Shown here: positions 14,299 to 61,797 of the stretch, piece after piece
Layout: each line of letters opens with the position of its first letter
Numbering within the stretch: position 1 is the stretch's first letter
Assembly (NCBI RefSeq): GCF_001556185.1
Contig: NZ_LSIJ01000028.1
Span: 1 to 64,000, forward strand
DNA length: 64,000 bases
Direction of reading: 5' to 3'
From: Sphingomonas sp. CCH10-B3
GTDB lineage: Bacteria; Pseudomonadota; Alphaproteobacteria; Sphingomonadales; Sphingomonadaceae
Notes under the pieces: model-generated
Told to the model about the DNA's origin: nothing
Database searches by the model: none
What the model saw: only the letters and a program-made list of their open reading frames with translations
Translations under genes and position numbers: made by a program

Positions 14299-14395
14299 CC
14301 GTCATCCCCGCGCAGGCGGGGATCCATAGGCATGGCGCGTCGTTCGCGCTTCAAATCTCAGCCAATATGGATTCCCGCCTGCGCGGGAATGACGG
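14299..14395. repeat. Intergenic palindromic repeat, family R3 copy 1
   Basis: Two inverted GC-rich arms, CCGTCATCCCCGCGCAGG near the left end and CCTGCGCGGGAATGACGG at the right end, enclose about 40 bp of unrelated sequence. The element sits between the convergent GT4 and DUF808 genes. A second copy is at 20523-20618. The ends read the same motif outward from the centre, as in paired REP/BIME-like units. It could fold into a long hairpin in the transcript and protect or end mRNAs. Confidence 0.85.
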
Positions 14396-14427: not shown

Positions 14428-15366
14428 TCAATGCGCGGCCTTGCGCTTAGGCATCAGCTTGAGCGCCACTATGATCACTGCGCCGATCACGATCCCGACG
14501 ATCGCCGATCCAATCGCGGTAACCAGCCACTCGACCGCCGCTTCGCCCGCCGGCAGCGCATGTGCCGCGCCGACGGCAAGCTCGTGGATCAGATGCTCGG
14601 GCGCCTTCCAGCCGAACTCCGCGAGCGCGTGGACGACGATGCCGCCGCCGACCCACAGCATCGCCGCCGTGCCGATCACCGACAGGATGCTCAGCAGCAC
14701 CGGCATCGTCTTCACCAGCGCGCGCCCGATCGCGCGCGTCGTCGCCAGTTTCCGCTTCGCCATCGCCAGGCCGATGTCGTCCATCTTCACGATCACCGCG
14801 ACGACGCCGTACACGCCCGCCGTGATGCCGAACGCGACCGCGATCAGCGCCAGTGCCTGATTGAGCAGCGGCTGACCCTCGATCGTGCTCAGCGCAATCG
14901 CCATGATTTCACCCGACAGGATGAAATCGGTGCGGATCGCCCCGCTGACCTGCCGGTCTTCTAGCTGCCGGGCGTCGAGCTTGACGATCGCTTCCTCGGC
15001 ATGCGGTTCGTGGCTGAGTGCATGGACGATCTTTTCGGCGCCTTCGAAGCACAAATAGGATCCGCCGACCAGCAGAAGCGGGGTGATTGCCCAAGGCGCG
15101 AACGCACTCAGCAGCAGCGCGGCGGGGAGCAGGAACACCAGCTTGTTCTTGAGCGACCCCACCGCGATCTTGCCGATGATCGGCAATTCGCGGTCGGGCG
15201 TCAGGCCGACGACATAGCTTGGCGTCACTGCCGCATCGTCGATCACCACGCCCGCCGCCTTGCTCGCCGCCTTGGCCGAAGCGCCCGCGACATCGTCGAG
15301 CGATGACGCCGCCAGCTTGGCGATTGCGGCAATATCGTCGAGCAGCGCTACCAGTCCGCCGGGCAT
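14428..15366 (-). CDS. DUF808 family inner-membrane protein (YedI-like)
   Basis: Polytopic membrane protein of 312 aa belonging to DUF808, the family of E. coli YedI (about 305 aa). The N-terminus MPGGLVALLDDIAAIAKLAA is the family hallmark, followed by VVIDDAAVTPSYVVGLTPDRELPII and several hydrophobic helices (about 85-125, 180-225, 240-300). The frame stays open 77 codons further upstream, but that extension runs through an intergenic repeat; the AAGGGGAAAG Shine-Dalgarno before ATG 15366 settles the start. The biochemical role of the family is not established. Confidence 0.9.
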   Translation of the reverse strand: MPGGLVALLDDIAAIAKLAASSLDDVAGASAKAASKAAGVVIDDAAVTPSYVVGLTPDRELPIIGKIAVGSLKNKLVFLLPAALLLSAFAPWAITPLLLVGGSYLCFEGAEKIVHALSHEPHAEEAIVKLDARQLEDRQVSGAIRTDFILSGEIMAIALSTIEGQPLLNQALALIAVAFGITAGVYGVVAVIVKMDDIGLAMAKRKLATTRAIGRALVKTMPVLLSILSVIGTAAMLWVGGGIVVHALAEFGWKAPEHLIHELAVGAAHALPAGEAAVEWLVTAIGSAIVGIVIGAVIIVALKLMPKRKAAH

Positions 15367-15520: not shown

Positions 15521-17383
15521 TCACGCCGCCACGCCCTCCAGCGCCTCGCTTGCCTCCAGCCACGCCGCTTCGGCTGCCTCGAGCTGTTCGGCGACATCGG
15601 CGCGGCGCTTCATCAGGTCGCTCATCGTCAGCTTGGCAAGGCCCGGCGCCGCCTTCGACGGATCGAACATCGCCAGATCGATCGCGCTTTGCTCCGCCGT
15701 CAGCTTGACCACCCGTGCCTCGGCCTCGCTCGCGGCTTTCTTCACCGCCGCCAGCCGGTCGCGCTCGGCAGCCGCCGCCTTCTTGTCCTTTTTCTTGAAG
15801 CCTTCGCCACTGCCCTTGGGCTGGTTCTTGCCGAGGATCAGGTCGGTATAATCGTCGAGGCTGCCCGAATATTCCTTCGCGGTGCCGCCATCGACGAGCA
15901 CCAGCCGGTCGGCGGTCAGCTCGATCATGTGACGGTCGTGGCTCACCACCACCACCGCGCCCGAATAATCGTTGAGCGCCTGCACCAGCGCCTCGCGCGC
16001 GTCGACGTCGAGGTGGTTGGTCGGCTCGTCGAGGATCAGCATGTGCGGCGCGTCGCGGGTGATGAGCGCGAGCGCGAGCCGCGCCTTCTCGCCACCCGAT
16101 AGCGCGGCGACCTTGGTCGTCGCCTTCATCCCCGAAAAGCCGAACCGCCCGAGCTGCGCACGCACCGCCGCGGGCGACTTGCCGTCCATTGCCCGCGTCA
16201 TGTGTTCGAGCGGGGTGTCGGCGCCGTCGAGTTCCTCGACCTGATATTGCGTGAAATAGCCGACGCGCATCTTGCCCGATTTCGACACATCGCCTTCCAT
16301 CGCGGGCAATTGCGCCGCGAGCAGGCGCGCGAGCGTGGTCTTGCCATTGCCGTTGCGCCCCAGCAGCGCGAGCCGGTCGTCGGGGTCGAGCCGCAGGTTC
16401 AGCCGCTGGAGGATCGGCTTTTCGGTATAGCCCACTGCCGCCATGTCTAGCGTCACCAGTGGCGGGCGCAGCGGCTCAGGGCTCGGGAAGTCGAAGCTCA
16501 AGGTCGGGTCTTCGGCCATTGCCGCGATCGGCTGCATCTTCGCCAGCATCTTCATTCGCGACTGCGCCTGCTTCGCGGTCGAGGCACGCGCCGAATTGCG
16601 CGCGACATAATCCTGCAGCTTGGCGCGCTGCGCTTCCTGATTCGCCCGCGCGGCGGCGAGCTGGGCGATGCGTTCGGCGCGCTGGCGTTCGAAATCGTCA
16701 TAGCCGCCGGGGTAGAGGAACACCTTGCCCCCCTCCAGATGGAGGATGTTGTCGACGACATTGTTGAGCAGGTCGCGTTCGTGGCTGATCACGACCATCA
16801 TCGCCGGATAGCTCTTCAGGAAATTTTCGAGCCACAGCGACGCTTCGAGATCGAGATGGTTCGACGGCTCGTCGAGCAGCAGCAGATCGGGTTCGGAGAA
16901 TAGCAGCGCGGCGAGCGCGACGCGCATCTTCCACCCGCCCGAATAGCTGTCGAGCGGGCGCGCCTGCATTTCGTCGTCGAAGCCCAGCCCGACGAGGATC
17001 TTCGCCGCCCGCGCCTCCGCCGTATAGGCGTCGATCGCCTCCAGCCGCTCGTACAGCTCGGCGATGCGATCGGGATCGTGGCAATGCTCGGCCTCGGCGA
17101 GCAGCGCGGCGCGCTCGGTATCGGCGGCGAGCACGGTTTCGAGCGGGGTCGCGGTGCCGTGCGGCGCTTCCTGTTGCAGATAGCCGATCCGCGTCTTGCG
17201 CGGCATCTCGATCTCGCCCTCGTCGGGGTCGATCGCGCCGATCATGACCTTCATCAGCGTCGATTTGCCCGCGCCGTTGCGCCCGATCAGCCCGACCCGG
17301 CTGCGCGGCGGCAGCGCCGCGGTCGCGCGGTCAAGGATCGTCCGCCCGCCAAGGCGCACCGTGATGCCGTTGAGATTGAGCAT
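15521..17383 (-). CDS. ABC-F family ATPase (YheS/Uup-like)
   Basis: Soluble 620-aa protein with two tandem ABC ATPase domains and no membrane segments, the ABC-F layout; members act on the ribosome. Domain 1 has Walker A GRNGAGKST, signature YSGGWKMRVALA and Walker B LLLLDEPSNHLD. The interdomain linker (about 235-310) is basic and helical, as in the P-site interaction motif. Domain 2 has GRNGNGKTT, LSGGEKARLALA and MLILDEPTNHLD. A C-terminal Lys/Ala/Glu-rich coiled coil (about 535-610) resembles the Uup/YheS extension. It is a housekeeping translation factor rather than an obvious resistance determinant; the exact subfamily is uncertain. Confidence 0.93.
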   Translation of the reverse strand: MLNLNGITVRLGGRTILDRATAALPPRSRVGLIGRNGAGKSTLMKVMIGAIDPDEGEIEMPRKTRIGYLQQEAPHGTATPLETVLAADTERAALLAEAEHCHDPDRIAELYERLEAIDAYTAEARAAKILVGLGFDDEMQARPLDSYSGGWKMRVALAALLFSEPDLLLLDEPSNHLDLEASLWLENFLKSYPAMMVVISHERDLLNNVVDNILHLEGGKVFLYPGGYDDFERQRAERIAQLAAARANQEAQRAKLQDYVARNSARASTAKQAQSRMKMLAKMQPIAAMAEDPTLSFDFPSPEPLRPPLVTLDMAAVGYTEKPILQRLNLRLDPDDRLALLGRNGNGKTTLARLLAAQLPAMEGDVSKSGKMRVGYFTQYQVEELDGADTPLEHMTRAMDGKSPAAVRAQLGRFGFSGMKATTKVAALSGGEKARLALALITRDAPHMLILDEPTNHLDVDAREALVQALNDYSGAVVVVSHDRHMIELTADRLVLVDGGTAKEYSGSLDDYTDLILGKNQPKGSGEGFKKKDKKAAAAERDRLAAVKKAASEAEARVVKLTAEQSAIDLAMFDPSKAAPGLAKLTMSDLMKRRADVAEQLEAAEAAWLEASEALEGVAA

Positions 17384-38813: not shown

Positions 38814-38892
38814 CCGTTCGTGTCGAGCGAAGTCGACACAGCTTGCGCGCGGCTTCTGGCCTGTTTCTCGACTGCGATTAAAACAAGCGCGG
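38814..38892. repeat. Intergenic palindromic repeat, family R2 copy 1 (degenerate)
   Basis: The left arm CCGTTCGTGTCGAGCGAAGT matches the R2 copies at 58014 and 60450; the right part TCTCGACTGCGATTAAAAC has decayed relative to TCTCGACTTCGCTCGAAAC. The length is also about 77-79 bp. It lies between the convergent DUF2147 and DNA-glycosylase genes. Confidence 0.75.
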
Positions 38893-38918
38893 GGAAAAAA
38901 ACATGCCCCGACGCCCGC

Positions 38919-56456: not shown

Positions 56457-57602
56457 ATGAGTCTTCCGCTATCGCTGCTCGCCCGGATCGGCAGCTACAC
56501 CGTCAGGAATGAATTCAGCGGTCGCAAATACCCGCTGGTCCTGATGCTCGAGCCGCTGCTGCGCTGCAATCTCGCGTGCCCCGGCTGCGGCAAGATCGAT
56601 TACCCCGATGCGATTCTCAACCAGCGGCTGAGCGTGCAGCAATGCATGGACGCGATCGACGAATGCGGCGCGCCTGCCGTCTCGATCGCGGGCGGCGAAC
56701 CGCTGCTGCACCGCGACATGCCCAAGATTGTCGAGGGTTATATCGCGAAGAAGAAGTTCGTCATCCTGTGCACCAACGCGCTGCTGCTGAAAAAGAAGAT
56801 CGACGACTATAAGCCCTCGACCTTCTTCACCTGGTCGATCCACCTTGATGGCGACAAGGGCATGCACGACCATGCGGTCGATCAGGAAGGCACTTACGAA
56901 GTCGCGATCGAAGCGATTGAAATGGCGAAGGCGCGCGGTTTCCGTGTGCAGGTGAACTGCACCGTGTTCGACGGTGCCGATCCCGCACGGCTCGCGGCGT
57001 TCTTCGACGAGATGGAAAAGCGCGGTGTCGAGATCACGATTTCGCCCGGCTACTCGTACGAGCGTGCTGCCGATCAGGAGCATTTCCTGACACGCGAACG
57101 CACCAAGAATTTCTTCCGCGACGTGTTCCGTCTTGGCGACGGCGGCAAGAAATGGACTTTCACCAATTCGCCGCTGTTCCTCGACTTCCTCGCGGGCAAC
57201 CAGACCTATGAATGCACGCCCTGGTCGATGCCGCTGCGCACCGTCTTCGGCTGGCAGAAGCCCTGCTATCTGGTCGGCGAAGGCTATGTCGACACCTTCG
57301 CCGAGTTGATGGAAGGCACCGACTGGGACCAGTACGGCGTCGGCAAGTACGAGAAATGCTCGAACTGCATGGTGCATTGCGGGTTCGAAGGGACGGCGGC
57401 GAGCGATTCGATCCGCAACCCGCTGAAGATGTTCCAGATCGGCCGCAAGGGCATCCGCACCGAAGGTCCGATGGCCCCCGACATCGACTTGTCGAATGCG
57501 CGCAAGGCGCAGGACGTCCACTCGCTCCACGTCGAGCGCGAGCTGGAGAAGATCAAGGCCGCCGATCCCGAAGGTTATAAGCGGGTGCAGCGCGCGGCTT
57601 AA
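56457..57602 (+). CDS. hpnH: HpnH, radical SAM adenosyl-hopane synthase
   Basis: Adds the 5'-deoxyadenosyl group to hopene, making adenosylhopane, the first step to C35 hopanoids. The 381-aa protein has the radical SAM C-x3-C-x2-C motif (C37, C41, C44) in EPLLRCNLACPGCGKI, SIAGGEPLLHRDMPKI as the GGE motif, and a SPASM-like Cys-rich C-terminus with KYEKCSNCMVHCGF. It is cotranscribed with ispH and runs tail to tail into hpnG, overlapping it by 4 bp. Confidence 0.96.
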   Translation: MSLPLSLLARIGSYTVRNEFSGRKYPLVLMLEPLLRCNLACPGCGKIDYPDAILNQRLSVQQCMDAIDECGAPAVSIAGGEPLLHRDMPKIVEGYIAKKKFVILCTNALLLKKKIDDYKPSTFFTWSIHLDGDKGMHDHAVDQEGTYEVAIEAIEMAKARGFRVQVNCTVFDGADPARLAAFFDEMEKRGVEITISPGYSYERAADQEHFLTRERTKNFFRDVFRLGDGGKKWTFTNSPLFLDFLAGNQTYECTPWSMPLRTVFGWQKPCYLVGEGYVDTFAELMEGTDWDQYGVGKYEKCSNCMVHCGFEGTAASDSIRNPLKMFQIGRKGIRTEGPMAPDIDLSNARKAQDVHSLHVERELEKIKAADPEGYKRVQRAA

Positions 57603-58300
57603 GCCGCGCTGAGGGCCGCGATTGCTTCGGCGACGCGGCCCAGCGCGCGAAATGCTGCTTCGGCGTTCCGCCCGGTGCGGATTAGCGCGGGGAGTTGCGC
57701 GGGCCGTCGCGCGAGGCTGAGCAGGACCTTGCCGATTGCCATCGATCCGTCGGGATTCATGCCGACGAGTGCAGCTGGGGGCAGGGTTTCGCTGGCCGTA
57801 TCCGAAATTGTCCTGATCGCCGCGAAGGGCCGGCCGTGGCGCGCGGCGACGCGGGCGGCGATGTGCGTCTCCATGTCGACCGCGAGAGCCCCGGTGGCGG
57901 CGTGGAGCGCGGCCTTTTCGGCGACGGTGGCGGCGATGTGATCCTGGCCGATGATGCGGCCGTGGTGGGCGTGGGGGAGGGCTGACGTTAGCCCTTGCAC
58001 CCAGCTTCCCCAACCGTTCGTGTCGAGCGCAGTCGAGACACCGCGCGAATCGTTCAAGGCCTGTTTCTCGACTTCGCTCGAAACGAACGGGGGGAGGTGG
58101 AGGACGACATCCCCCGCCTTCAGCGCCGGATCGAGCGCACCGGCGATGCCGCACGACAGCAGCATCGCCGCGCCGGGCGCCGCCGCCTCGAGCGCCGCCT
58201 CCAGCCGCGCGGCGTCGCCGCCGCCGGGGATCGCCCGCACGCCCTCGCGCGACAGGATGGCGGCCTCGCGTTGCAGCCCGCAGGCGATGAGGATGGTCAT
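57599..58300 (-). CDS. hpnG: HpnG, hopanoid-associated nucleoside phosphorylase, with internal repeat insertion
   Basis: Processes adenosylhopane, releasing adenine to give ribosylhopane phosphate. Nucleoside phosphorylase fold, 233 aa: MTILIACGLQREAAILSREG, MLLSCGIAGALDPALKAGDV, ALAVDMETHIAARVAARHGRP and IRTISDTASETLPPAA. Residues 71-96 (FVSSEVEKQALNDSRG and onward) are encoded by an R2 repeat at 58014-58090, lying in frame between GDVVL and the WVQGLTSALP helix where I expect a loop. The rest of the fold is intact, so the protein may still be active. It is separated from shc by another repeat. Confidence 0.9.
   Translation of the reverse strand: MTILIACGLQREAAILSREGVRAIPGGGDAARLEAALEAAAPGAAMLLSCGIAGALDPALKAGDVVLHLPPFVSSEVEKQALNDSRGVSTALDTNGWGSWVQGLTSALPHAHHGRIIGQDHIAATVAEKAALHAATGALAVDMETHIAARVAARHGRPFAAIRTISDTASETLPPAALVGMNPDGSMAIGKVLLSLARRPAQLPALIRTGRNAEAAFRALGRVAEAIAALSAA
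58014..58090. repeat. Palindromic repeat, family R2 copy 2, inside hpnG
   Basis: A 77-bp element with inverted ends, CCGTTCGTGTCGAGCGCAGT at left and a right arm (TCGAAACGAACGG at the tip) whose complement matches 23 of 25 bases of the left one. It is fully inside hpnG and read in frame on the minus strand. Its sister at 60450-60526 is also 77 bp but intergenic. Confidence 0.88.
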
Positions 58301-58313
58301 CGCTTCACCTCAG

Positions 58314-58408
58314 CCGTCATGCTGAACTTGGTTCAGCATCCAACGCCCCACAAGGGCGGACAGGGTTGGGGCGCGATGGACCTTGAAACAAGTTCAGGGT
58401 GAGGGCGG
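58314..58408. repeat. Intergenic palindromic repeat, family R4, shc-hpnG gap
   Basis: CCGTCATGCTGAACTTGGTT on the left and CTTGAAACAAGTTCAGGGTG on the right form inverted arms around a GC-rich centre. Only one copy is in this window; I recall a similar TGAACTTG/CAAGTTCA repeat in sphingomonad genomes. It occupies most of the gap between shc and hpnG. Confidence 0.7.
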
Positions 58409-58445
58409 GAGGGGTAATGAGCGCAGTCGGCAAACGCCGCCCGCC

Positions 58446-60416
58446 TCACATCCCCCACGCGACATCCCGCGCGTTCGACCGCTTTAGATTGCGATACCGC
58501 GCCACGGCCCAGAGCGGGAAATATTTCGGATAGCCGTGATAGCGGAGATAAAACACCCGCGGGAAACCGCCGCCGGTGTAATGTTCCTGCCCCCACAGCC
58601 CGTCTTCGTCCTGATGCTCGACGAGCCAGGCGATGCCGCGATCGACCGCTTCGCCATCGACACGCCCCGCCGCCATCAGCGCGAGCAGCGCCCACGCCGT
58701 CTGCGACGCGGTCGACGGCGCGGGCTCATAGCCCGCATAATCGAGCTTGTAGCTGTCGCAATCCTCGCCCCAGCCGCCATCGGGGTTCTGGATTTCCTCG
58801 AGCCAGTCGGCCGCGCGCGCGATGCTCGGATGGTCGGCACCCAGCCCCGCGGCGTTGAGCGCGCACAGCACCGACCAGGTGCCATAGATGTAATTGACGC
58901 CCCAGCGCCCGAACCAGCTGCCGTCGGCCATCTGTTCCTTGGCGAGATACTGGATCGCCGCCTGCATCCGCGGGCTGTCGAGCGGCTCGCCACGCTGGGC
59001 GAGCATCGAGATGCAGCGCGCGGTCACGTCGGCGGTCGGCGGATCGAGCAGCGCACCGTGATCGGCGAAGGGGATGTTGTTCAGATAGTCATAGGTATTG
59101 TCGGCATCGAACGCGCCCCAGCCGCCGTTCTTCGATTGCAGCCCGACGGTCCATTCGATCCCGCGATCGATCGCCTCGTCATAGCCGTCCGCGCCAACAC
59201 CAGCAGGCGCGAGCTTGTCCTTGGCGCGGTCGAACGCCATCACCACGACGGCGGTATCGTCGAGATCGGGATAGTGATCGTTGCGATACTGGAACGCCCA
59301 GCCGCCGGGACGCACCTCTGGCTTGTCGTCGGCCCAGTCGCCCTTCAGGTCGAGCACTTGCAGCGGCTTGAGCCATTCGAGCCCGGCGCGGGCGCGCGCC
59401 TCATTCTCCTCGCCGCCGACCTCCAGCATCGCGTGCGCCGCCAGCGCGGTATCCCACACCGGCGAGACGCAGGGCTGGCAATAGGCTTCGTCGTCCTTGA
59501 TCACGAGCAGCTTTTCGACCGACGCCCGCGCGATCGCGCGGTGCGGGTGATTCTCGGGGTAGCCGAGGCAGTCGAACATCATCACGCTGTTCGCCATCGC
59601 CGGATAGATCGCACCCAGCCCGTCCTCGCCGTTCAAGCGCTCGACGACGAAATCGACGCAGGCCTTGATCGCGCGTTCGCGGCTGCCCTTCGGCCAGACC
59701 GGTTCGACCGTCTTGAGCACGCGGTCGATGGCGCCGAAAAACAGCTGCCAGTGCCGCTTGGCGCCTGCGACATTGCTTTTGAGGGGGGCGGCCTTGACGG
59801 TGTAGAGTTCGTCGACCTTGATCCCGCGCGGATTCTTCGCGACCGGCTTCATCACGCCGAGCACGAGCAGCGGCACGATCACCGTGCGCGCCCAATAGCT
59901 CATCTTCGACAGATGCACCGGGAACCAGCGCGGCAGCAGGATCAGCTCGGCGGGCATCGTCGGGATGACGCTCCACGGCCCCGCGTCGAACAGCGCGAGC
60001 TGGATGCGGGTGAAGACGTTGACTGCCGCCGCGCCGCCCGCCTTGTGGATCGCCGCGCGGGCGCGGGCCATGTGCGGCGCGTCGATGTCGTCGCCGATCA
60101 TCTTGAGCGCGAAATAGGCCTTCACGCTCGCCGAAATGTCGAACGCGCCGGCGTGGAACAGCGACCAGCCGTCGTGCTTTTCGGACTGGATGCGGCGCAG
60201 ATAACGGCCGATCTTGGCTTCGAGCCCGGCGTCGACGGGCTCGCCGAGATAATGGCGCAGCAGCACATATTCGGCCGGGATGGTGCAATCGGCTTCGAGC
60301 TCGAACACCCAGTGCCCGTCGTCGCGCTGCACGTCGCGCAGGGCCGCCGCGGCGCGCGCGGTGGCGGCGTCGGCAGCAGCGATCAGATCGGGTCGAGTTT
60401 CAGCAACGGTCAGCAT
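58446..60416 (-). CDS. shc: Squalene-hopene cyclase
   Basis: Cyclises squalene to hopene and hopanol (also called HpnF), a monotopic membrane enzyme of 656 aa. The acid motif is DLDD at 384-387 in HYPDLDDTAVVVMAF, matching the D-x-D-D of the family. Several QW-type repeats are seen (DGHWVFELEAD, GGWAFQYRND, GGWGAFDADNTY, GSWFGRWGVNYIYGTWS, GGWGEDCDSYK, DGLWGQEHYTG). Upstream hpnE is on the same strand, with an R2 repeat between them. Confidence 0.97.
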   Translation of the reverse strand: MLTVAETRPDLIAAADAATARAAAALRDVQRDDGHWVFELEADCTIPAEYVLLRHYLGEPVDAGLEAKIGRYLRRIQSEKHDGWSLFHAGAFDISASVKAYFALKMIGDDIDAPHMARARAAIHKAGGAAAVNVFTRIQLALFDAGPWSVIPTMPAELILLPRWFPVHLSKMSYWARTVIVPLLVLGVMKPVAKNPRGIKVDELYTVKAAPLKSNVAGAKRHWQLFFGAIDRVLKTVEPVWPKGSRERAIKACVDFVVERLNGEDGLGAIYPAMANSVMMFDCLGYPENHPHRAIARASVEKLLVIKDDEAYCQPCVSPVWDTALAAHAMLEVGGEENEARARAGLEWLKPLQVLDLKGDWADDKPEVRPGGWAFQYRNDHYPDLDDTAVVVMAFDRAKDKLAPAGVGADGYDEAIDRGIEWTVGLQSKNGGWGAFDADNTYDYLNNIPFADHGALLDPPTADVTARCISMLAQRGEPLDSPRMQAAIQYLAKEQMADGSWFGRWGVNYIYGTWSVLCALNAAGLGADHPSIARAADWLEEIQNPDGGWGEDCDSYKLDYAGYEPAPSTASQTAWALLALMAAGRVDGEAVDRGIAWLVEHQDEDGLWGQEHYTGGGFPRVFYLRYHGYPKYFPLWAVARYRNLKRSNARDVAWGM

Positions 60417-60449
60417 GTGGCGAACTTCAATCTCTCCAACTTCCCCAGA

Positions 60450-60526
60450 CCGTCCGTGTCGAGCGAAGTCGAGACACCGCGCGACTCGCGCGCGGCCCGC
60501 CCCTCGACTTCACCCGGGACGAACGG
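60450..60526. repeat. Intergenic palindromic repeat, family R2 copy 3, hpnE-shc gap
   Basis: A 77-bp element with arms CCGTCCGTGTCGAGCGAAGT and CTCGACTTCACCCGGGACGAA, inverted. It is the intact-length sister of the copy inside hpnG, and it lies between two genes of the same operon, in a 121-bp gap. Confidence 0.85.
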
Positions 60527-60537
60527 TTAGCTGGTCT

Positions 60538-61797
60538 TTAGTCTAGGCCGATCGATTGTGCCAATTTTGCGGCAGTCGCGCCGGAACGAATTGCCCCTTC
60601 GATCGTTGCGGGCAGCCCGGTCTGGGTCCAGTCGCCCGCGAGGAACAGGTTGCGGTACTGGGTCGCCGCCCCGGGGCGCAGCGCATCCTGTTCAGGCGTG
60701 GCGGCGAAGGTGGCGCGCTTTTCCTTGACGATCTGCCACGGCGGCAGCTCGGGCGGCAGCTTGTGGACCTGCGCGATCTCCGCCCAGAAAGTACGCGCGA
60801 GCGCCTCGCGGTCATGGTCGACGAGCCGATCGGCGCCGCTGACTGTCACCGAAATCCGGTCTTCGAAGGCGAAGATCCATTCGGCCGTCCCGCCGATCAC
60901 GCCGATCATCGCTGGTGTGCCCGCCGGCGGGGCATAGGCGAAATGCGCGTTGACGATCGCGCGGAATTCGGTCGGCGCGGAAAGGCCGGGGAGCAGGCTT
61001 TGCGCGACCCACGGCGGCACCGCGAGGATGACGGCGCCGTGCACCGGCTCGATGCCATCGCCGAAATCGAGCCCCGTCACCCGGTCGCCTTCGGTGACCA
61101 GCGCGCGCAGCCGGGTGCCGGTCGCCAGCTTGCCGCCGCGCAAGGCGAGCCACGCGAGCGCAGGCTCGACGAAGGCGGCCGCCAGCGTCGGCTCGGCGAT
61201 GCGCGGTGCGCTCGCCCTGCCGCCGCGCGCGAGCGATCCCTGAATCACCGCCGCCGCCAGCCGCGCCGACCCTTCGCGCGGATCGGTGTTGAGCGCGGAC
61301 AGCAGCACCGGGTCGATCAGACGCCGCCCTAGCTGTCCGGATAAGTCGATGCGGTCTGACACCCGGTCAGAAATCCGGCCTACGAGAAGACGCCCCAAGG
61401 CGGCGTATGAGGCGATAGAAGTGCCGGGGACGCGACGCCTCGCGAACAGCAGCCACCACGGGATCGGACCGTCATTCGGTCGAATCGTCCAGCGCGCGCC
61501 GTCCTGCAGGTCAACGAAGTCGAAGCTCGCACTCGCGGGGCCGACCACCCGGTCGCTCGCGCCAATCGTTTCCAGATAGCGCGCCACCGCCTGATTGCCC
61601 GCCAACACCAGATGATTGCCATTGTCGATCACGCGCCCCAGCTGCGGGTCGTGATAGCTGCGGCAGCGCCCGCCAGCCTGGGCCGCGCTATCGGCGAGCT
61701 CGACCTTCCAGCCGTCGCGGGCGAGCTCGACCGCCGCCGACAGCCCCGCCATGCCCGCCCCGATGATCGTCGCGCGTCGGCTCAACGCAGCAGCCAC
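60538..61797 (-). CDS. hpnE: HpnE, hydroxysqualene dehydroxylase
   Basis: FAD-dependent amine-oxidase-fold enzyme of 419 aa that reduces hydroxysqualene to squalene, the last step of HpnCDE squalene synthesis. N-terminal FAD site ATIIGAGMAGLSAAVELARD with AGGRCRSYHD, and C-terminal NLFLAGDWTQTGLPATIEGA that contacts FAD. Its start overlaps the end of hpnD by 16 bp, giving the order hpnC-hpnD-hpnE-shc. It is followed by an R2 repeat and shc. Confidence 0.95.
   Translation of the reverse strand: MAAALSRRATIIGAGMAGLSAAVELARDGWKVELADSAAQAGGRCRSYHDPQLGRVIDNGNHLVLAGNQAVARYLETIGASDRVVGPASASFDFVDLQDGARWTIRPNDGPIPWWLLFARRRVPGTSIASYAALGRLLVGRISDRVSDRIDLSGQLGRRLIDPVLLSALNTDPREGSARLAAAVIQGSLARGGRASAPRIAEPTLAAAFVEPALAWLALRGGKLATGTRLRALVTEGDRVTGLDFGDGIEPVHGAVILAVPPWVAQSLLPGLSAPTEFRAIVNAHFAYAPPAGTPAMIGVIGGTAEWIFAFEDRISVTVSGADRLVDHDREALARTFWAEIAQVHKLPPELPPWQIVKEKRATFAATPEQDALRPGAATQYRNLFLAGDWTQTGLPATIEGAIRSGATAAKLAQSIGLD

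Follow-up and report, generated by a model that had tools for sequence, protein, structure and literature searches.

Unrelated palindromic repeats in one loop of the hopanoid enzyme HpnG in Sphingomonas

Described palindromic repeats within genes

REPINs, the elements that go with RAYT transposases, consist of two inverted hairpin units each, with covarying stems. Palindromic inserts lying in frame within genes are established as the RPEs of Rickettsia and as intragenic REPs (PMC3767692, PMC3733652, PMC2229807; here and below, statements citing these papers refer to the accessible parts of their text). For RPE-4, RPE-6 and RPE-7 a common origin was preferred by the authors. Different RPE groups were also reported in orthologous genes, and the choice between hotspots and one diverged insert was left open (PMC3767692). 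ORFs can contain REPs and REP dimers, S. alaskensis and E. litoralis being among the species concerned, and in recB of X. campestris and of X. oryzae nearly the same site is taken by REPs that differ between the two species (PMC3733652).

The element treated here, R2, lies within hpnG in the window, i.e., the whole stretch of 64,000 nucleotides that was analysed. Rickettsia RPEs are by their description similar to R2, being multicopy palindromes in frame within conserved enzymes at exposed sites (PMC2229807). R2 is likewise a many-copy palindrome, and it stands in frame in a gene under selection, at a place where uninserted orthologues lack it. The hpnG case differs from the RPEs in that its repeat families are plainly unrelated and that a single loop, in Sphingomonas, appears to have switched between them many times. 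GTAG/CGTC REPs are also palindromes inside ORFs, and their same-site case covers two species (PMC3733652); R2, however, has neither tag, its arms beginning with CCGTTCG, while copies of another family found in HpnG, family E, carry CGTC. The accessible main text of PMC3733652 does not name hpnG among the intragenic REP cases. With REPINs R2 shares the two inverted hairpin units, but no PF01797 gene with an hpnG-type repeat beside it was found among 18 RAYT-matched loci. The general notion of a MITE (PMC2229807) may apply to R2 in one relative, where it lies within a TA-bounded 139-bp unit with terminal inverted repeats, whereas in hpnG the copies that were read have no such termini. In the open-licence literature we found no report of one loop cycling through unrelated repeat families, or of the HpnG loop, and nothing on insertion of palindromic elements in Sphingomonas proteins. 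A search for repetitive extragenic palindromic sequences together with Sphingomonas gave nothing on the HpnG loop, as judged from titles and the opening lines of abstracts, and words of the R2 sequence were not found there save for one 12-base word in an unrelated chondrocyte paper.

The R2 element in hpnG and its copies elsewhere

The gene is placed between hpnH and shc (Table 1). Its product had TIGR03468 (HpnG) as top family, with 185.2 bits and E 1e-54, slightly below the family cut-off of 187.1 bits, a shortfall that the insert may explain. Beside this score, the identification as hpnG is based on the gene neighbourhood and on alignment to relatives. The earlier note had claimed a 77-bp palindrome in frame within hpnG, and this was confirmed with respect to the residues encoded, the imperfect pairing of the ends and the lack of a stop; five of the six frames are open across the element. 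Its RNA fold had -42.2 kcal/mol (z -5.9), and 0.39 Mb of Markov control sequence gave one palindrome of score >=15, compared to 76 in the real loci (0.99 Mb), which together exclude a chance origin. The loop has 44 codons in the window and 17 in uninserted relatives. The net difference of 81 bp (77 + 4) is consistent with the argument that an element whose length is not a multiple of three needed a further base change. Next to R2 lies TTCCCCAA, similar to a one-sided flank of many R2 copies, and judging from these flanks the inserted unit was probably longer than 77 bp on one side and included it. No Rfam match was obtained up to E 0.1 across window positions 57500-60700.

Table 1. Positions of the features in the window, and of repeats within genes at the compared loci
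Feature	Position or loci	Strand	Remarks
hpnG, hopanoid-associated phosphorylase/nucleosidase	57599..58300	-	233 aa, ORF intact despite insert
R2 (family A) within hpnG	58014..58090	-	77 bp, residues 71-96, arms 23/25
TTCCCCAA	58006..58013	-	8 bp adjoining R2
hpnH, adenosyl-hopene transferase	56457..57602	+	TIGR03470, 501 bits
shc, squalene-hopene cyclase	58446..60416	-	TIGR01507, 761 bits
hpnE	60538..61797	-	TIGR03467, 398 bits
R2 copy in the shc-hpnE intergenic gap	60450..60526	.	match stretch 60436-60526, 81% to hpnG copy
Decayed intergenic R2 copy	38814..38892	.	match stretch 38814-38895, 79% to hpnG copy
Family A (R2)	loop of window, L142, L143, L090, L093
Family B (CCCCTCCCCTTCAGGGGAGGGG)	loop of L088, L091		composite form L089, L107; scar L110
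Family C (TTCCCCGGCGAAGGCCGGGG)	loop of L094-L097, L101, L104		L111 by protein
Family D (CTCCCGCGAAAGCGGGAG)	loop of L100, L102, L105
Family E (CGTCACCCCGGACC)	loop of L098, L099, L103
Family F (CCCTCTCCC type)	loop of L106, L117, L122
Family G	loop of L115
Protein-motif forms only	P0120, P0192		P0120 E-like; P0192 another repeat
Second reading frames by protein motif	P0193, P0202, P0207, P0226 (A); P0023, P0025 (B); P0225 (D)
HpnB-like inserts	L095:16297, L097:16373, L099:16601, L100:16463, L102:4033, L103:3801, L105:3810		seven loci by looser reading

Both further copies in the window that the earlier note had listed were recovered. The 350-bp stretch round the copy at 60450 could be aligned at 85% to locus L142 of a relative, the copy of L142 included. 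Searches of the genomes of two relatives gave 75 (G001, genome of L001) and 81 (G002, genome of L002) matches. Since both strands of one palindrome were counted, with 40 candidates scored per genome, these values correspond to dozens of copies each, in support of the view that the insert belongs to a mobile-like repeat family. The element was exactly 77 bp in 30 of the 35 full copies extracted from loci, hpnG copies among them. Each arm forms its own hairpin, and all three variable stem pairs were complementary in 75 of 78 arms (shuffles: mean 27, maximum 41); as the copies are related, this count is to be taken as support and not as a probability. A palindrome was seen at 29 of 30 R2 loci from the two genomes (the one at L055 may be a different one). 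Only one of the 29 was in-gene by codon score, thus R2 is mainly intergenic.

In G002 the repeat is part of a longer unit. Of 15 loci 14 were aligned, without L036, which lies at a contig start, and all 14 copies sit between inverted termini with TA at their borders; in 12 the two termini are visible, and in the remaining two a contig end cuts one off. In this unit (e.g., L027, L205-L234) R2 is central, the inverted ends are TAGAGYCSGATGAC, and complete pairs span 139 bp. The R2 core was invariant at 72 of 77 positions over the 14 copies, and the 139-bp unit is a recent burst. The TAGAGYCSGATGAC-type end pattern gave 71 hits in G002 and none in the reversed control; G001 had four hits, each with a mismatch, one of them adjoining an R2 match. 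A TA target duplication is only suggested. None of the hpnG copies of R2 that were read has TA-bounded terminal ends, hence the unit in its present form did not bring them.

Two candidates for mobilisation were considered and rejected. PF01797, the RAYT domain, was found in only 10 of 42 genomes with hpnG and was absent from 32; among four carriers of family A it was present in G001 and G033 and missing in G002 and G231. No hpnG-type insert was detected in 18 RAYT-matched loci of 2.1-3.4 kb at E 1e-3. DDE_3 (PF13358), suggested by the TA-bounded ends, matched twice in G001, once strongly; G002, in which the TA-bounded unit is abundant, had a single match that fell short of the cut-off. The RAYT and DDE_3 searches thus gave no source transposase or insertion enzyme. 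The plasmid search returned one record, Sphingobium RAC03.

Two observations concern other repeats of the window. The gap between shc and hpnG (58316-58405) holds a further inverted repeat by eye (CTGAACTTGGTTCAGCATCC ... GAAACAAGTTCAG), which resembles L088:10239-10314. Six more palindromes of score >=15, of other repeat families, lie at 14299, 15404, 20523, 35907, 39955 and 47546, all outside genes by codon score.

Repeat families and their turnover in the HpnG loop

The first scan of genome contigs gave 25 loci. R2 was in the same HpnG loop in L001 and L002, one repeat unrelated to R2 was in the loop of L003, L004, L006 and L015, and L005 and L010 had others; L007 kept a one-armed remnant, and no insert was seen in L008, L009 and L011-L014. 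The search was then extended to 295 genomes of the genus, with matches in 81, many of which were merely repeat peptides outside hpnG. The comparison set comprised 56 hpnG loci and the window, in total 57 loci and 0.99 Mb. The loop had at least 36 amino acids in 27 of them (window, L088-L107, L111, L115, L117, L122, L142, L143), 24 being measured and L101, L111 and L117 read by eye, with L111 cut at a contig start. Among the other 30, L109, L110 and L126 had 20-27 amino acids (a clear scar in L110, possible ones in L109 and L126), L108 had 18, ten had 17 to 23, six were short by eye, four were distant with different loops, and six were unparsed. The usual empty form has 17 amino acids. The expectation that the segment is an extra loop missing from most orthologues held in so far as uninserted relatives lack it, but a site bare in most of them was not supported: in Sphingomonas it is often occupied, and frequently the occupant is a repeat unrelated to R2. 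A Novosphingobium query added 106 proteins, the nearest of them mostly of the empty 17-aa form, with several rows unparsed. The close orthologues L142 and L143 have residues similar to those of the window because R2 DNA is present there, which speaks against a native segment. The same two loci count against the suggestion that the element was caught in the act: they share the insert, which compared to that of L142 has diverged about neutrally (pN 0.217, pS 0.228).

Seven palindromic families (A-G) were found as DNA in the loop, and protein sequences added two further families as well as second reading frames of three families (Table 1). The loop of L092 was assigned to none of the seven. An automatic family count of 226 proteins left 37 without family, several of them plainly A, F or short by eye. 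In blastn of 25 loop segments at E 0.01, nine cross-family pairs (A-B and C-E) were confined to the last 27-44 nt; these fall in the native helix, and there is thus no similarity inside the elements themselves. When for each family the best copy beyond hpnG was taken from the respective genome or locus, identities were 81% (A), 83% (C), 79% (composite B), 85-87% (E) and 90% (D). For family F the corresponding copy reached 92%, but over no more than 59 bp, and of its 281 bp only some 60 recur, which makes it a weak case. Plain B (L088, L091) and G had matches confined to other loci (22, 19 and 4). Family D had 80 matches in G103, both strands counted, whereas at E 1e-4 the fetched loci gave no copy of it beyond hpnG. 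For the loops of L092, L109 and L126 the loci compared contained no further match. Locus L107 has a second composite B copy at 14509-14665, away from its hpnG loop. Consequently, nested insertion within hpnG was dropped as the source of the long B loop in L089 and L107, since the composite is able to move as a unit.

To follow the loop content, a tree was made from 152 HpnG cores (156 rows before removal of duplicates) with the loop removed, by a quick method with quick support values over 194 columns. The tree did not include five unparsed proteins, L131 and those loci whose loop was read by eye, and family labels were motif-based with correction by hand. On the full tree the loop content must have changed 43 times or more. 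When branches with support under 95 were collapsed and all resolutions allowed, the minimum was 22 changes, 20 without unassigned loops and 15 without the empty state too; at a threshold of 99 the corresponding values were 14, 12 and 9. Close pairs that differ in loop content are P0032/P0041 (97) and P0009/P0030 (98). Most of the evidence for switches comes from metagenome protein clusters without DNA, and single rows among them may be chimeras. At the DNA level one swap was directly visible: L093 (family A) and L104 (family C) share 84.6% identity over 480 nt of flanking sequence, whereas their loops are unrelated. A deletion scar was seen in L110 compared to L088, where one arm remains and the frame is kept, as slippage between the arms would give. 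On the tree and these alignments, the HpnG loop has switched repeat family many times in Sphingomonas. In the clade of the window 71 of 79 rows were occupied and 8 empty, in a sample gathered with an inserted query.

Frequency, selection and possible explanations

The inverted-repeat scan of the 57 loci gave 76 palindromes with score >=15. They were in the hpnG loop in 20 loci, 18 by coordinates together with L101 and L117. A codon rule placed 30 palindromes within genes, including 17 of the 18 (L088 was slightly under) and those of L101 and L117; the other 11 comprised five at one SHC site, two in an HpnB-like gene, one in an acyltransferase-like linker and three in apparently ordinary coding sequence. 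As baseline, 0.80 Mb of evenly spaced stretches chosen by us from six genomes, with about 602 predicted genes, contained eight in-gene palindromes in seven ORFs, about four of the eight judged to be repeats. The comparison of 20/57 with 8/602 gave p 3e-17, and with 11/655 in the same loci 2e-16 (it was also run with 4 and 13), p values that overstate the contrast, since the loci are related by descent and the choice of hpnG came from the finding itself. The statement that repeat-derived peptides are rare thus stands when counted per gene and does not apply to hpnG itself.

The core of HpnG is under purifying selection, with dN/dS of 0.10-0.33 in 13 pairs and 0.17-0.24 in three pairs. In the loop, pN was close to pS in five of eight inserted pairs and about half of pS in the other three, and some constraint on the peptide is possible. 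The predicted structure had a mean pLDDT of 92.3 and was confident save for the insert, blocks of residues 71-100 having values of 61, 53 and 73. The model shows the insert as a loop of low confidence, and we read it as the extra, flexible surface loop for which the earlier note had proposed modelling.

We give a probability of roughly 60% to the reading that the HpnG turn in Sphingomonas is a landing pad for repeat families, gated by selection. R2 would be a short non-autonomous repeat of two inverted small hairpins that spread to dozens of copies, one of which entered hpnG at the turn after the strand GDVVL and was retained because an insert of this length and frame allowed the enzyme to fold. 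Many repeat families would drop into this turn, and only in-frame events would pass the purifying selection that acts on the core. The resulting peptide would drift, parts would be lost by deletion between the repeat arms, and another element could later occupy the vacated place. Recurrence would thus be caused by tolerance, not by targeting or benefit, and loss of an element would precede its replacement. Several results count against the landing pad. Occupation that is only tolerated should leave more empty loops, yet the clade of the window has only the few given above, and the three pairs with reduced pN point to possible constraint. The mobilisation searches gave no insertion enzyme, and most switches are seen in metagenome proteins. 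It is doubtful, but the next most probable case, that the turn is instead an insertion hotspot, its DNA or an older palindrome or scar being a preferred target. The excess over baseline genes would be expected from targeting, and so would the many families at this site, whereas SHC and the HpnB-like gene have one family each by eye. However, the uninserted forms show no common palindrome or motif by eye, the element ends differ between families, and no target duplication is readable at hpnG. Somewhat less probable than targeting is selection independent of content, favouring any long flexible linker or strong mRNA hairpin and replacing a lost element. The high occupancy in the clade and the very stable hairpin agree with it, and synonymous divergence was lower in the loop than in the core in all eight equal-length inserted pairs. 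We rejected the latter as a hint of selection, since the only uninserted pair used as control, L112/L118, likewise has a reduced pS in the loop (0.072, core 0.420), so that the effect does not depend on the insert; moreover, loop amino acids appear neutral in five of eight pairs, and short forms with an intact core occur, such as L108, L110 and L116.

Explanations with fewer insertions fare worse. Horizontal exchange of hpnG segments bearing the loop would account for the discord with a tree built on so few columns and quick support values, with few true insertions. It is very unlikely, as separate families still require separate entries and the flanking DNA is still similar on either side of the L093/L104 swap. 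A single ancient insert diverged into all present loops would explain the constant site, but it is the least credible of all: members of six families look like multicopy repeats found at other places of the same genome or locus, no similarity crosses the families within the elements, and A, B and D each occur in two reading frames by protein motif.

A further proposal, which we hold only tentatively, is that the loop is an exchange site, where unrelated repeats are inserted and replaced faster than at other permissive loops, by DNA targeting or favoured occupancy. If so, mobile repeats would act as interchangeable spare parts of an enzyme. The HpnG case bears on the question raised for Rickettsia, a hotspot for different elements or a diverged ancestral insert (PMC3767692). 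Here many relatives, isolates included, have distinguishable, unrelated families at a single site, so that rates of gain, loss and replacement become measurable. It also illustrates that repeat DNA can supply protein segments to a conserved pathway with reading frame and core unbroken.

Palindromes were also observed in other genes. In SHC an in-frame palindrome of family B occurs at a single site after DDTAVVVMAMDRA (L094:8905-9011, L095:10997-11101, L096:8834-8938, L099:11318-11422, L101:8896-9000). In a glycosyltransferase named HpnB-like by eye, in-frame palindromes of one family precede a VPARDEA motif; L095 and L102 qualify under the stricter codon rule. A palindromic repeat at L135:1726-1865 lies in an apparent linker of what by eye is an acyltransferase E2 subunit, and L184 has two, at 15833-15908 and 16630-16735, within one ORF of 777 aa that resembles by eye the beta subunit of glycyl-tRNA synthetase.
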